A stretch of DNA of 64,000 nucleotides from contig CACFTX010000001.1 of the NCBI GenBank assembly GCA_902569405.1, positions 248,001-312,000 of the forward strand. The letters are read 5' to 3'. The translations under genes were made by a program, and so were the position numbers. Origin of the DNA: an uncultured Pelagibacteraceae bacterium (GTDB taxonomy: Bacteria > Pseudomonadota > Alphaproteobacteria > Pelagibacterales > Pelagibacteraceae). Below the pieces are notes generated by a model. The model saw only the letters and a program-made list of their open reading frames with translations. It was not told the origin of the DNA and did no database searches. This document shows positions 7,667-14,154 of the stretch, in pieces (positions within the stretch are counted from its first letter, which is position 1; every line of letters begins with the position of its first letter).

Positions 7667-8551
7667 TTAATTTTTATTTAAAATATCTTTACTAACTGAA
7701 GATTTAATTCCAATTACAGAAGAAAATAATCCAAAGAATCTAAATTTGTTTTTCCTAAATTTTTCTTTAGAAAAAAAATACAAAGCAAGAAAACTAATAA
7801 AAAAACGTATCAACTTTGATAAATGAATAAATAACGAATAAAGAAAGCCATAATGTTTTTTATGGTAATAAAATCTAGACCAGTAATAGTTCCAATGTCT
7901 AAAATCAGAGTAATTTTGAGCAATTTTTGGATCTACACCCTTGCCACCTTCATGAAATATTTTTATTTTATTAAAAACAAAAATATTTTCATTTATATTT
8001 TTTATTCTTTTGCATAAGTCAATTTCCTCAAAAAAGAAAAAAAAATTTTCATCAAATATATATTTGTCTTTAAATTTATTAAAATTAACGATTAAGGAAC
8101 AACCTTTTATAAGATCAATTTTTGTTTTACTTTCATTTGTACTGATATTTATTTTTTTACTTTTAAAATGTTTGTCAAAATTATTGCTATTATTGAAATC
8201 TATAAGATCGTCATGTAAAGGTGTAGCTAAAGCAAATTCTTCATTGCAATTATCAATTTCATTTTGAATTTTTATCAATTGACTTTCATCTATTTTTACA
8301 TCAGTGCTTAGCAATAGTGCATATTTTGTATTGATTTTTTGAAATCCGATATTAGCTGCCTTTCCAAAGCCGAGATTCTCATTATTAATTATTACTTTTG
8401 CTTTATAATATTTTTTTTCGATTAATTCTTTGAATTGAAAATTATTTGAATTTTCTACTATAATTTTTTCTATATTTTTTCCCAATCCTGAAAGGCAATT
8501 TTCTAGCTTTTCCAAAGATTTATAAGAAATGATTACAATTGATAAATTCAT
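7667..8551 (-). CDS. family 2 glycosyltransferase (rhamnosyltransferase-like)
   Basis: MNLSIVIISYKSLEKLENCLSGL; NNENLGFGKAANIGF; FFFFFEEIDLCKRI; hydrophobic C-terminal region. Confidence 0.85.
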   Translation of the reverse strand: MNLSIVIISYKSLEKLENCLSGLGKNIEKIIVENSNNFQFKELIEKKYYKAKVIINNENLGFGKAANIGFQKINTKYALLLSTDVKIDESQLIKIQNEIDNCNEEFALATPLHDDLIDFNNSNNFDKHFKSKKINISTNESKTKIDLIKGCSLIVNFNKFKDKYIFDENFFFFFEEIDLCKRIKNINENIFVFNKIKIFHEGGKGVDPKIAQNYSDFRHWNYYWSRFYYHKKHYGFLYSLFIHLSKLIRFFISFLALYFFSKEKFRKNKFRFFGLFSSVIGIKSSVSKDILNKN

Positions 8552-8629
8552 TTAAATTTAAAATAATATATATTATTTTTTTAATAAGTTTAGTTATAAA
8601 TTTATGCCTATTATGATACTTATTAAACC

Positions 8630-10630
8630 GTGATAAAAAAATTTATTAGATATATATTTTATTTTTTAATTCTAATAATCATTTTTATATTATACGAATT
8701 AATCATAATTGATTCTAGTTATGTTAATAAAGGAACTTTTAATATAGACGTAAACAACGTAAGAAACCCTCAGGTTAAAAAGATTGTTAGAAAATTAGAT
8801 AATTTGTTTGGTCAAATGTACTTTTCTGCAAGTGCAGCTAAACAGCAAGAATTTTACGAAGTAGATTTAAATTATTACAATAATTTACCAAACGAAATAG
8901 CTGTGCCACCAAAGTTAAACAACTTAACTATATCAAATAATAAAAATTTTAATAACAATAAAGACTGGACAAGAAGCCATGGAAATCATTCATCAAATAA
9001 ATTTTCAAATTTAAAATTAATAAACAAAGATAATGTTAACGCTCTAGAAGTTGCGTGGACTCACACCTTTGAAAAAAAGGGCGATATACCAGGCAATCCT
9101 ATTTTTTATGACGGAACAATTTATTTATCGTCTAATAATAAATCAATTGTTGCTTTAAACGCTTCTAACGGTGAAAAAAAGTGGGAATTTAAAACCGAAG
9201 GTATGCCCGCAAGGAGAGGTATGTTAATTCATGGCGAACATGATTTAAGATTATATTTTTGTGATCAAAAAAATTTAAATGCAATTTATGCAAAAAGTGG
9301 AAAACCCGATAAAAATTTTGGAAATAATGGCAAGATTAAATTAAAAAAAAATTGTCAAATCACTCCAGTAATTATTGATAATAAAATTATAATTGGAACG
9401 TTTGAACCATCAATTGAAGTTTATGATTTATCTAAAGGCAAATTGCTCTGGAGATTTTACTTAAAAGAAAAAAATAATAAATATTTTAGATATGGCGGAA
9501 AAAGATTTGATCATTCAGGAGGCAATCCTTGGGGAGGGATATCAGCTGATGTAGATAGAAAAATTTTATATGTAACAACTGGTAATGCTGGAAGATTTTA
9601 TGAAGGAATAAATAGACCGGGTCCAAATAAATATTCAAACTCAATAGTTGCAATTGATATTGAGAAAAAAAAATTACTCTGGGAGTTCCAGGAAGTCGAA
9701 CACGATATTTGGAATTTTGATATAGCTTCACCTCCAATATTAACATCTATAAAGATTAATAATAAAAAAATAGACGTTGTTGTTGCTCCAACAAAGTTTG
9801 GAAACACAATAGTACTTGACCGTCTTACAGGAGACAATATTTTTGAATACAAGAAAATTAAAGTTTCTTTATCAAATGTTCCTGGTGAAAAAACTTCTTA
9901 TTATCAGAAACTTTTTTCACTACCAGAACCTTTTTCAAATCAGTTTTTTGAGGAAAATCATATAACAAATATTTCTAAAGAGAGTAATGATTTTGTTAAA
10001 GATAAAATTCAAGATGCAAGTTATGGATTTTTTGTACCAAATTCAATTGATAAAAAAAATATAATTTATAAAGGTGGCGCACAGTGGATGGGTGCTAGTA
10101 TTGATCATAAAAAATCAATAATGTATTTGACTTCAAATGATATTCCATTTCTTATTTGGTTAGAAAAAACTAACCCTAAAGACTATTATGTTTACTCAAT
10201 GAAATCGGAGTTCTTAGTTGATCATTTAGGCTACCCAGGTTCCAAACCTCCTTGGGGAAGACTGACGTCAATTGATCTTAATACAGGAAAAAAAATTTGG
10301 GAGGTTCCATTTGGAGAGTATAATGAGCTTACAAAAAAGGGAATTCCTATTACTGGAACTTATAATTTTGGTGGTGTAACTGGTACCGCTGGCGACTTAC
10401 TATTTGCAACTGGAACTTTGGATAATAAGATTAGGGCAATAGACTCTATTAATGGAAATGAATTATGGAGCTATAAATTACCTTTTTCTGGATCAAGTCC
10501 TCCAACAATTTTTGAACATTTAGGTGAGCAATATATAATTGTTGTATCAACTGGAAGTTCTTCTATGATGCAAGCATATCCAAACAAAAGTCAATACGGA
10601 AATAAAGTATATGCTTTTAAATTAATGTAA
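8630..10630 (+). CDS. PQQ-dependent (quinoprotein) glucose-dehydrogenase-type enzyme with N-terminal membrane anchor
   Basis: GTG start; DWTRSHGNHSSNKFSNLKLIN, repeated beta-propeller motifs (IVALNASNGEKKWEF, AIDSINGNELWSYKLPF), GGAQWMGASID, YIIVVSTGSSS. Confidence 0.88.
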   Translation: MIKKFIRYIFYFLILIIIFILYELIIIDSSYVNKGTFNIDVNNVRNPQVKKIVRKLDNLFGQMYFSASAAKQQEFYEVDLNYYNNLPNEIAVPPKLNNLTISNNKNFNNNKDWTRSHGNHSSNKFSNLKLINKDNVNALEVAWTHTFEKKGDIPGNPIFYDGTIYLSSNNKSIVALNASNGEKKWEFKTEGMPARRGMLIHGEHDLRLYFCDQKNLNAIYAKSGKPDKNFGNNGKIKLKKNCQITPVIIDNKIIIGTFEPSIEVYDLSKGKLLWRFYLKEKNNKYFRYGGKRFDHSGGNPWGGISADVDRKILYVTTGNAGRFYEGINRPGPNKYSNSIVAIDIEKKKLLWEFQEVEHDIWNFDIASPPILTSIKINNKKIDVVVAPTKFGNTIVLDRLTGDNIFEYKKIKVSLSNVPGEKTSYYQKLFSLPEPFSNQFFEENHITNISKESNDFVKDKIQDASYGFFVPNSIDKKNIIYKGGAQWMGASIDHKKSIMYLTSNDIPFLIWLEKTNPKDYYVYSMKSEFLVDHLGYPGSKPPWGRLTSIDLNTGKKIWEVPFGEYNELTKKGIPITGTYNFGGVTGTAGDLLFATGTLDNKIRAIDSINGNELWSYKLPFSGSSPPTIFEHLGEQYIIVVSTGSSSMMQAYPNKSQYGNKVYAFKLM

Positions 10631-10757
10631 AAACTAAAAAATATTACTAATAAGTCTTTTTAAATTGATAAGAAATATGATATATTTTTTTAATTATGGC
10701 AAGTGTGGTTGTGCCCACTTATAAAAAAAGGACAACAGTACAAATAAGAGCACGACT

Positions 10758-12146
10758 ATGAAAAAAATAATTATAATTTTATTACTTTTTCTTTTTAACA
10801 CTAATGTAGCAAAAGCAGCTGATATTTCAGCAGGTTTCGAAGACAATACAGATTTTAAGAATAAAGAAGATGAATTTAACTTGTGGCTAAGGGACAATGG
10901 TCATGATCAGTATTTAAATTTTGAACCTAGAAGAATCTGTAAAGAGGAAGCGAAAGGAAGTAATGTTTGGTATTTAAACAAATGTAATGAATTTGAGGGA
11001 TCAAATAATTTAAAAATAAAATTTTATAAAGACAGATGGCAAGTTCGCCCCAATGCTGAACCTAACAGAGATACATTAATTTATTATTTATGGAAAACTA
11101 TTAATCATCCATATACAGGTCAATTTCACAAATATGATATAAAACCTTCAAAAAATCCTGTTAAATTTGAAAAAGATTTGAGAGTAGATGAGTCTGTAAA
11201 AGAGGAATTGAAAGAATCGGCAATACTTAGCTACTTACGGTTTGAAGGAGACAAAATTGTAATAGATGAAATGTCGCCTAAAGAAAGATTAGGAAAATTT
11301 ATTGATAACACTACTAAGTTTCGTTCCAATTCAGTAAACAAAAGCATGATAGGATTGCTAGCAGGTCATGCAATTTGTGCTGGATACATTGATAGTATAG
11401 ACGCAAGATTAAATGATTGGCCCATGATTCAAAACACCCTCTATCATGATCAAAAATTAATAGATCTTTTAAACATGAATGCAGGAGATCATAAATACGT
11501 TACAGATGTTGCAATGTGGAATGGCGAAAGTAATGACGATGAAAATCTAGCTTATTACATGGTAATGATTAAAGATAAAAAAAGATCTAAACCTAAATAC
11601 AATTATCATGGGTTATTGCCAAATGTAGTCTTTAATTACATTAAATACAAAACTGGCGATCAATTTGAAAAGTTTTTAGCGGATGTTTTCCAAAAACATA
11701 TTAAAATTAAAAATAGTGTTCTTTTTTTTAAACATAGAGATATGCCTGATGAAGGAAGAGCGAATTCCATGTTTTATGCAGATAGATATGATTATTTAAG
11801 AATTGCAAAAAGTATTATGGATGATTATCAAAATGATACATGTGTAGGTAAATATTTTAAGGATATACACGAAAGAAGAATAAAGAAAAAAACTACAGCA
11901 GAATTTAAAGATCCTCCTTACAATCCATCAAAAGCTTATGGAGGTTATTTTCATATGGAATATAAAGGGATAGAAGATAAAATTGTATTTGGAATGAGTG
12001 GTTATGGAGGAGTTTCTATATTGATTGCTCCAGAATCATCTACGATAACTCTTATCAATTCTTTACACTATAGTTCTAAAAAGAAATCTAAATTTAGGTA
12101 TAATGAGAAACTACTTTCTATAAATCCTATTAAAAATAGAAATTAA
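10758..12146 (+). CDS. secreted serine hydrolase, beta-lactamase/penicillin-binding (class C-like SxxK) family, divergent
   Basis: Signal peptide MKKIIIILLLFLFNTNVAKAA; SVNKSMIGLLAGHAICAGYIDSID (SxxK context), LIDLLNMNAGDH, YNYHGLLPNVVFNYI, C-terminal GYGGVSILIAPESSTITLINS. Confidence 0.65.
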   Translation: MKKIIIILLLFLFNTNVAKAADISAGFEDNTDFKNKEDEFNLWLRDNGHDQYLNFEPRRICKEEAKGSNVWYLNKCNEFEGSNNLKIKFYKDRWQVRPNAEPNRDTLIYYLWKTINHPYTGQFHKYDIKPSKNPVKFEKDLRVDESVKEELKESAILSYLRFEGDKIVIDEMSPKERLGKFIDNTTKFRSNSVNKSMIGLLAGHAICAGYIDSIDARLNDWPMIQNTLYHDQKLIDLLNMNAGDHKYVTDVAMWNGESNDDENLAYYMVMIKDKKRSKPKYNYHGLLPNVVFNYIKYKTGDQFEKFLADVFQKHIKIKNSVLFFKHRDMPDEGRANSMFYADRYDYLRIAKSIMDDYQNDTCVGKYFKDIHERRIKKKTTAEFKDPPYNPSKAYGGYFHMEYKGIEDKIVFGMSGYGGVSILIAPESSTITLINSLHYSSKKKSKFRYNEKLLSINPIKNRN

Positions 12147-12202
12147 ATTTTTATTTACTTTATAATTTTAAAAAAATAATTATTTATGATATTTTGATTA
12201 TT

Positions 12203-12829
12203 ATGACCGCAAAATACGCAACTGGATCTTGTTATTATTGTCATGTAAAAAAAATTAAACCAGAAATGTTTCAGACCAATATTGAAATCAAAACTGGGAG
12301 AAGTAGTGGTAGCTGGGGACTTGGAAGATCGCAATACGGAAAAAAAAGAAGAAAAGCAACTCATTTAAGATATAACGCAGGCAGAACATATTATAAAAAT
12401 AAAAAGATATGGTGTTGTCGAGAATGTTATGCAGACAATCATCCAAGTGAGGCTGGATTTAAGTCTCAAAGACAAATAAGAAATGAAAGAGTCAAAAGGG
12501 AAGAACAAAAAAAATATAATTTAAAATCTAGTGGAGAAAAAGCTATTAAACTTATAAAACTTGTTAAGAAGTATACGAATAACAACCCTAAAGTGTTTAA
12601 TCAAAAAAATCTAAGTGAAATAAACACATCATTAAACAATATAACTAAGGCAATAGAAAATACTAATGATTATGAAAAAATTGATGAAGCAATATCTAAT
12701 TGTAAAGAAATTTTTTACTTAAATTGTCCAAATTTAAAAATTAAACTTTTATTTAGATTTTGGAATAGCCCTATTTTTTACTCAATTATAATTATTTGGT
12801 TATTAATTTTTTCTATAAAAAATTTTTAG
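12203..12829 (+). CDS. hypothetical protein with two CxxC pairs (putative zinc ribbon) and C-terminal transmembrane segment
   Basis: CYYCHVKK...WCCRECYAD; C-terminal FYSIIIIWLLIFSIKNF; start taken as the ATG at 12203 rather than the TTG at 12194. Confidence 0.7.
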   Translation: MTAKYATGSCYYCHVKKIKPEMFQTNIEIKTGRSSGSWGLGRSQYGKKRRKATHLRYNAGRTYYKNKKIWCCRECYADNHPSEAGFKSQRQIRNERVKREEQKKYNLKSSGEKAIKLIKLVKKYTNNNPKVFNQKNLSEINTSLNNITKAIENTNDYEKIDEAISNCKEIFYLNCPNLKIKLLFRFWNSPIFYSIIIIWLLIFSIKNF

Positions 12830-13595
12830 ATTTTATTTTCATAAGGTAATTTTTAAGACCTTTTATTGAATTGAAAATTTGTTTTTGAAAGTTTTTATCA
12901 AAATAGTCCCAATCAAGTACTTTATAAATACGCTTTCTTTTTTGCCTAGGCATAGAATTTTTTAGTTTAATTTTATTTCCAAAATCAGGATTTTTAAAAA
13001 TATAAATTTTGGAAATTACTTCTTTATAATTTTGTTCATTTTCATATTTAAATTGAACAAAAATTGTATATTTAAATTTTTTAATATAGCTTTCTCTACC
13101 TGGTATATTGTCTGGATGTGTATTCCAACCAGTTAAGCTTATAGGTCCTCTGGAAACAACACGTGTAGCTTTATTTATTTTTAGATTCGATAAAATATCT
13201 TTTATTGAGTCTAAAATTATTTTTCTGTCTTCCTTTTCTATACGTTTTTCAGGCGACTTTCTTTTCCATTTACTCAACATTTCTTTTGTATCAAAAACAA
13301 TATTCTCGTACTTTTCTAATGGAGATCCTTTATCAGGGTATATTTTGGTATAAGTATCGTTAATATAAACATAGTCATAAAAAGCATCTTTTCTTGATCT
13401 CTTCCCATTATAACGTTTGTTGTTTGAAATTGATGATTTTACATCAATATAAATTTCTTTATTATTAATATTCAAAGTGAAATCTATTTCTCTATAATTA
13501 GTCTTGATTGCGTTAATTTTTTTTGATCTTACAAAATAAAGATATACAAATTCAGCATACTCACCTCTTTTTTGAGCTGACATACTATTAATCAT
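12813..13595 (-). CDS. hypothetical protein, putative PD-(D/E)XK nuclease-fold (restriction-like)
   Basis: N-terminal KRGEYAEFVYLYF ... REIDFTLNINNKEIYIDVKSS fits the E...D-x(n)-(D/E)xK pattern. Confidence 0.6.
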   Translation of the reverse strand: MINSMSAQKRGEYAEFVYLYFVRSKKINAIKTNYREIDFTLNINNKEIYIDVKSSISNNKRYNGKRSRKDAFYDYVYINDTYTKIYPDKGSPLEKYENIVFDTKEMLSKWKRKSPEKRIEKEDRKIILDSIKDILSNLKINKATRVVSRGPISLTGWNTHPDNIPGRESYIKKFKYTIFVQFKYENEQNYKEVISKIYIFKNPDFGNKIKLKNSMPRQKRKRIYKVLDWDYFDKNFQKQIFNSIKGLKNYLMKIKSKNFL

Positions 13596-13695
13596 AAAAT
13601 ATTATAACCTTAACTATAAGAATAATAAAAAAAATTTACTTATTAAACTTGTTCAATTATAAATATTAGCATAAACACTCATGAAAATAACTCAT

Positions 13696-13781
13696 GCCCT
13701 CGTGGTGAAATTGGTAGACACAAAGGACTTAAAATCCTTGCCCTTTTGGGAGTGCCAGTTCGAGTCTGGCCGAGGGCACCA
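13696..13781 (+). tRNA. tRNA-Leu (anticodon UAA), CCA encoded
   Basis: Acceptor GCCCTCG/CGAGGGC, anticodon stem aagga-CTTAAAA-tcctt (TAA), long variable arm, T-arm GTTCGAGTC, terminal ACCA. Confidence 0.97.
13726..13781 (+). repeat. 56-bp direct repeat copy 1 (3' portion of tRNA-Leu; att-like)
   Basis: Exact match to 14099-14154: gacttaaaatccttgcccttttgggagtgccagttcgagtctggccgagggcacca. Confidence 0.97.
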
Positions 13782-13784
13782 CAA

Positions 13785-14006
13785 ATGATTATGAAAAAAG
13801 TTTTTATTTTATTTACATTATTTTTTCTTATTTCATGTTCAGAAAGTGCTAAAGAAGAAAGATACTTTGCAAATTGTGTTAAAGATGCAATGAAAACAAA
13901 TAAATGGTCTGAAAAAGAATCTGTTAGTTATTGTGAGCTCAGAAAGAGTATGAGACCAGATGAATTTAGTTATTACAAAGGAAAAATTTATAGTAAGAAA
14001 AGATAA
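13785..14006 (+). CDS. small putative lipoprotein (about 73 aa)
   Basis: MIMKKVFILFTLFFLISCSESAKEE: signal peptide plus lipobox LISC. The ORF-track start at 13746 lies inside the tRNA, so it was trimmed. Confidence 0.65.
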   Translation: MIMKKVFILFTLFFLISCSESAKEERYFANCVKDAMKTNKWSEKESVSYCELRKSMRPDEFSYYKGKIYSKKR

Positions 14007-14098
14007 TAGTTTATGTGCAAATTATGTGTAAGTGGTGCACAAAGTGCAAATTGGATATGAATAAATATTTGAATATTAATAATAATAGAAGGGAAGGA

Positions 14099-14154
14099 GA
14101 CTTAAAATCCTTGCCCTTTTGGGAGTGCCAGTTCGAGTCTGGCCGAGGGCACCA
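14099..14154 (+). repeat. 56-bp direct repeat copy 2 (orphan tRNA-Leu 3' fragment; att-like)
   Basis: Exact copy of 13726-13781 without any tRNA 5' half upstream. Confidence 0.97.

Follow-up and report, generated by a model that had tools for sequence, protein, structure and literature searches.

How did a second copy of the 3' half of a tRNA gene come to lie behind the intact gene in an uncultured Pelagibacteraceae bacterium of SAR11, whose members are among the most abundant marine bacteria and have streamlined genomes? The locus spans positions 13696-14154 of the window, the 64,000-nt stretch analysed here (positions 248,001 to 312,000 of contig CACFTX010000001.1, assembly GCA_902569405.1), where tRNA-Leu(UAA) is followed by one small open reading frame (ORF) and by a copy of its own 3' half. 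Judged by its gene content and its relatives, the genome is SAR11/Pelagibacter-like. We propose that the locus is probably the right-hand part (attR) of a small integrative element that lacks an integrase and has lost its left end. That site-specific recombination produced it, by this route or by either of two others weighed below, is close to certain.

The 56-nt tRNA segment at 13726-13781 recurs without a mismatch at 14099-14154, at an offset of 373 nt, and a perfect repeat of this length is far beyond chance expectation. In the whole genome, the tRNA-Leu(UAA) 3' half occurs at exactly these two places, as nucleotides 1-86 and as nucleotides 31-86 of the gene, with no third. No 5' tRNA half stands directly upstream of the second copy, and the 317 bp between tRNA and copy comprise 92 noncoding bp besides a single lipoprotein ORF, and no integrase gene. 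An earlier note on this DNA had described the exact duplication, the lack of a 5' half and the content of the insert (with about 90 bp noncoding), all of which we confirm. It had also let the repeat run from the anticodon loop to CCA; the 56-nt extent stands, and the start is refined to nucleotide 31, two bases 5' of the loop. The start of the copy at nucleotide 31 places the crossover zone in the anticodon stem-loop. The perfect identity of the two 3' halves, taken alone, gives no date for the event.

The 3' site is empty in most relatives. Among 70 related SAR11 loci, nadK starts no more than 60 nt past the tRNA end in 61, lies 0.8-2.6 kb from the tRNA with no tRNA fragment detected between in five, and is absent from the stretch read in four. 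In G207, the closest relative examined (EF-Tu 99%, PurB 95%), nadK sits immediately 3' of tRNA-Leu. The 3'-half and lipoprotein searches covered 398 congeneric genomes, including that of the window, and the 3'-half pattern is present twice in only four of them (G000, G180, G247 and G344). The extra half of G180 and G344 also begins at tRNA nucleotide 31 and is directly followed by nadK; the second copy of G247 is on a different contig and relic-like. A junction pattern derived from the window, G180 and G344 (GGNAGNA, then GACTTAAAATCC) matches six contigs among 84,980 species genomes, all from Pelagibacteraceae single-cell genomes and two of them being G180 and G344, as well as one viral contig, L131; in all these single-cell genome and prophage matches the extra half starts at nucleotide 31. 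This in-register pattern replaced a first one that had no match in viral contigs. The earlier note had attributed the locus to tyrosine-recombinase integration, a reading at odds with an identical tandem in every relative, and had proposed a search for empty alleles and for larger ones with an integrase. Both kinds exist in relatives, the larger ones as elements and prophages at the same tRNA, together with 3'-half inserts of different cargo, and the reading has held.

Several sister elements show what a complete version may look like. L079, L082 and L132 have both ends, arranged as 5' half and arm, tRNA-Leu, cargo, and GTGCA arm with 3' half. L133 has the right end only, together with a native tRNA promoter, as in the window, and a different cargo; L134 combines the right end of L133 with a 5'-half copy that lies upstream and has a different arm, and in both a small ORF lies over the arm besides the cargo ORF. 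The sequence upstream of tRNA-Leu is non-native in L082, L125 and L132, and their tRNA thus probably arrived with the element. L125 is larger; upstream of its tRNA it encodes a Rep-like protein and two recombination enzymes, a tyrosine recombinase and a serine resolvase. Its integrase has no match in viral contigs and one clear homologue in the genus, in G122 adjoining tRNA-Leu(CAA). In the element at locus L151 (G122:C1:103500-123000), a 423-aa tyrosine recombinase occurs together with a serine resolvase and an L125-like gene set, and tRNA-Leu(CAA) lies just 3' of the integrase gene. In L132, from SAR11 single-cell genome AG-895-K10, a group I intron (RF00028, 2.9e-12; L132:6040-6221, minus strand) sits in the anticodon loop of the element-borne tRNA-Leu(UAA), exactly at the attachment core; it would also disrupt the attachment site and might protect this rescue tRNA from re-integration.

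The window and its sisters are further connected by their arms. Four GTGCA/TGCAC words stand at 14015-14048 of the window, the runner-up cluster in the 64 kb, an unrelated one, having two, and five sister SAR11 arms hold three to six such words about 55-96 nt before the core. The motif was picked after three arms had been seen, and its rarity is therefore descriptive and no pre-planned test. The window arm is significantly similar to that of L079 (2/1000 shuffles). Since pairwise similarity is mostly weak, the claim of a shared arm rests on motif, position and junction and not on alignment. A pattern of the window arm matched only its own genome among the 398, and a strict A-arm pattern found no match in viral contigs. 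A generic form of the ATGTGCA triple repeat matched 11 viral contigs with no tRNA-Leu core nearby and was set aside as unrelated.

An equivalent junction with an integrase beside it occurs in the prophage contig L131, which encodes a terminase as well as a 361-aa integrase (PF00589, 1.4e-13), the gene of the latter ending about 150 nt before the core. Its arm has a diverged GTGC variant of the motif, and its arm-core boundary reads GGAAGGA, then GACTTAAAATCC, as in the window. The integrase of the uncultured podovirus KT997847 has 54% identity to that of L131, and its gene is followed by arm-GACTTAAAATC-arm, GACTTAAAATC being the 11-nt version of the core GACTTAAAATCC; judged by its sequence, this arrangement would be the matching attP. 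KT997847 also carries its own tRNA-Leu(UAA), about 8 kb from the integrase and arm site. We further observed an unannotated complete tRNA-Leu-like sequence directly beside the integrase gene of pelagiphages HTVC200P (L076) and HTVC119P (L077). The window genome, which is 98.6% complete, has a single PF00589 protein, about 94 kb from the locus, with best models that are Xer at scores below their cut-offs and with a score far below the integron integrase cut-off. Conserved in 6/6 relatives checked and Xer-like, this protein is unlikely to have made the junction. As it is the only PF00589 protein of the genome, the integrase of this junction acted in trans or was lost.

We suggest that a pelagiphage-type tyrosine integrase, absent from this genome, would recombine a GTGCA arm-GACTTAAAATC element into the host tRNA-Leu at its anticodon loop. 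The host 3' half would thereby be displaced to 14099-14154 as attR, and a functional tRNA-Leu, reconstituted or supplied by the element, would stay at 13696-13781 with the cargo lipoprotein gene immediately 3' of it. The ancestral, complete plan would be that of the sisters, from 5' half and arm through rescue tRNA-Leu and cargo to GTGCA arm and 3' half, and the left end would drop out if attL recombined with the internal tRNA, which would yield a right-end-only structure exactly as in the window. The junction, the empty sites, the sister elements, the arm motif and the integrases beside an equivalent junction can be read in the DNA; that an integrase was supplied and the element mobilised in trans, that a left end was lost, that the cargo is co-transcribed with the tRNA and that anything moves today is inferred. 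Several observations weigh against this proposal. The sequence upstream in the window revealed neither a left end (5' half and arm) nor any degenerate 5' half, which leaves a composite origin of this locus hypothetical. The similarity of the window arm to that of phage KT997847 is marginal (23/1000 shuffles), and that to L131 (293/1000 shuffles), L125 and L133 is not significant. Moreover, an O-antigen ligase gene (PF04932, 14175-15425) parts the displaced 3' half from nadK, in which G180 and G344 differ, and such a gene was not found at the equivalent position in the relatives read.

Two other site-specific histories could lead to the same structure. An L131-like prophage or L125-like element might have integrated and then lost almost everything except the arm, the displaced 3' half and a single gene. 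The junction and GGAAGGA-core end common to L131 and the window favour such a scar, as does the existence of L125 as a larger element with tyrosine recombinase, serine resolvase and Rep-like protein; the insert, however, is devoid of phage genes, its lipoprotein is unmatched in phage records and PHROG, and the sisters repeat the compact order of tRNA, one cargo ORF, arm and 3' half with differing cargo, which independent deletions are not expected to yield. We consider this history unlikely. It is less plausible again that a true 3'-only mini-element, a 373-bp circle made up of the 3' half, the lipoprotein gene and the arm, inserted in that form and that a left half was never present. An integrated circle of this make-up is self-consistent, and L133 is likewise right-end-only, with native tRNA promoter and different cargo, but L079, L082 and L132 of the same arm family do carry a left end, and the right-end-only form can therefore be derived.

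Slippage or misassembly can also create repeats near tRNAs, and the locus might then owe nothing to a recombinase. The window locus, however, is deep within a 521-kb contig, and an old local duplication or assembly artefact fits poorly with a breakpoint at nucleotide 31 in independent genomes, a common arm motif beside unrelated cargo, a matching junction in a prophage and empty sites in most relatives. We regard such an origin as very improbable, and we reject an old tandem duplication in view of the allele diversity among relatives. The right-hand remnant of an integrase-less element that once had two ends remains our preferred reading, and its features are collected in Table 1.

Table 1. 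Features of the tRNA-Leu(UAA) locus in the window (positions in nt of the 64-kb stretch)
Feature	Position	Strand	Basis
Native upstream (promoter) stretch of tRNA-Leu	13651..13695	+	45 nt near-identical in most relatives; differs in L082, L125, L132
tRNA-Leu(UAA), intact; attachment site	13696..13781	+	ARAGORN; Rfam RF00005
Crossover zone GACTTAAAATCC, anticodon stem-loop	13726..13737	+	Overlap of 3'-half copies (start at nt 31) with 5'-half copies (end at nt 39-42) in relatives
Cargo ORF, predicted lipoprotein, 71 codons	13791..14006	+	Lipobox LISC; 9 nt past tRNA end
GTGCA-type repeats, putative integrase arm-type sites	14013..14054	+	Densest GTGCA/TGCAC cluster of the 64 kb; similar clusters in five sister arms
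Remaining element arm, GGAAGGA at core-side end	14055..14098	+	GGAAGGA then GACTTAAAATCC also in prophage L131; GGGAGTA or GGAAGTA in sisters
Displaced 3' half of tRNA-Leu (attR), nt 31-86	14099..14154	+	100% identity to 13726-13781

Inserts of the opposite polarity use the same gene. In many relatives, 5'-half copies with other arms lie 0.27-4.3 kb upstream of tRNA-Leu, some of them in tandem. In L033, L055 and about 15 other relatives, we observed mini-inserts of 0.27-4.3 kb that each comprise a 5'-half copy and one of several arm types, mostly with same-strand cargo; neither ORF reading nor tblastn with five element integrases recognised an integrase in them. L091 (IMGVR_UViG_3300025897_001356, 7799 bp) is a satellite-like element of 7.7 kb bounded by direct terminal repeats. 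It encodes a primase and a 545-aa tyrosine recombinase and includes a tRNA-Leu 5'-half attachment site; its integrase has no match in named phages. In some podoviruses, too, an integrase gene ends just ahead of a 5'-half site. As 5'-type inserts and integrase-bearing relatives use tRNA-Leu(UAA) too, this gene is a hotspot of general use with a single crossover zone. In the window, region 7667-13595 upstream of the tRNA varies among relatives and encodes glycosyltransferase, PQQ-dehydrogenase-like, serine-hydrolase-like and two unknown ORFs; no 5'-half copy was found within it. A perfect 18-nt AT-rich inverted repeat (13459-13476 / 14068-14085) has one arm within the element arm beside the 3' half and may be due to chance in AT-rich DNA.

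The cargo of these inserts is diverse. L125 carries a PDC-S02 candidate-defence nuclease, L134 has Type IIG restriction genes in its upstream 5'-type insert, and the 5'-type insert L033 encodes a HEC-05 protein and a Cas4-like nuclease. The window lipoprotein belongs to no Pfam, PHROG or PADLOC family, its sole NCBIfam match being a sub-threshold signal peptide, and it has no match in phage records and no close homologue in the 398 genomes, where the only match was at 32%. That this protein acts against phage at the cell surface is a speculative idea. It is tempting, if doubtful, to propose that tRNA-Leu(UAA) of SAR11 is a natural dock for one-gene cassettes with a phage-type arm, some with a rescue tRNA, that pelagiphage or satellite integrases would mobilise in trans and that would carry defence and surface genes, with the tRNA promoter driving their transcription. 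The 373-bp unit in the window would be among the smallest of them, and its lipoprotein might alter phage susceptibility. If true, a tRNA dock for one-gene inserts with phage-type arms, some of which bring a rescue tRNA and defence genes, would offer a cheap and concrete route for phage-related gene exchange in SAR11 and would link such inserts to identifiable pelagiphage integrases, a link open to testing.

Related arrangements are known from other systems. In the tRNA-gene genomic islands catalogued as Islander (PMC4383910), a regenerated tRNA likewise lies at one end and a displaced fragment at the other, but the window has only 317 bp between these marks. Judged as a tyrosine-integrase tRNA island, it presents the tRNA with displaced fragment and unoccupied sites in relatives (61/70 loci), without an integrase within the element. 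Methylophilaceae possess an additive flexible island whose tRNA-Lys ends are repeated, as well as a tycheposon with xerD, of a class that measures 4-200 kb (PMC10872708). Variable genes beside a tRNA and, in the additive island, tRNA ends as direct repeats resemble the window. The insert has the tRNA border of a tycheposon but no tyrosine recombinase of its own and a size far below that class. Compared with an integron gene cassette, for which no dedicated attC search was made, the repeat begins at a tRNA core. Pelagiphages and Fonsiphages of HTVC019Pvirus group III integrate into SAR11 tRNA-Leu(TAG), the host gene giving way to a tRNA-Leu brought by the phage (PMC6811365). Podovirus integrase, tRNA-Leu target and a phage tRNA-Leu in place of the host gene are the common points; the isoacceptor differs (TAG there, UAA here), as does the scale, a 40-kb prophage compared with a 317-bp one-gene insert. 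tRNA-dependent lysogeny is known from actinobacteriophages (PMC10865867). The window differs from it in having neither integrase nor left junction, and its tRNA may be that of the host or of an element; the likeness lies in the layout of phage KT997847 and of elements L082, L125 and L132. A short core, a split host tRNA and an element tRNA of the same isotype are all present in these three elements, and KT997847 is consistent with this set of features.
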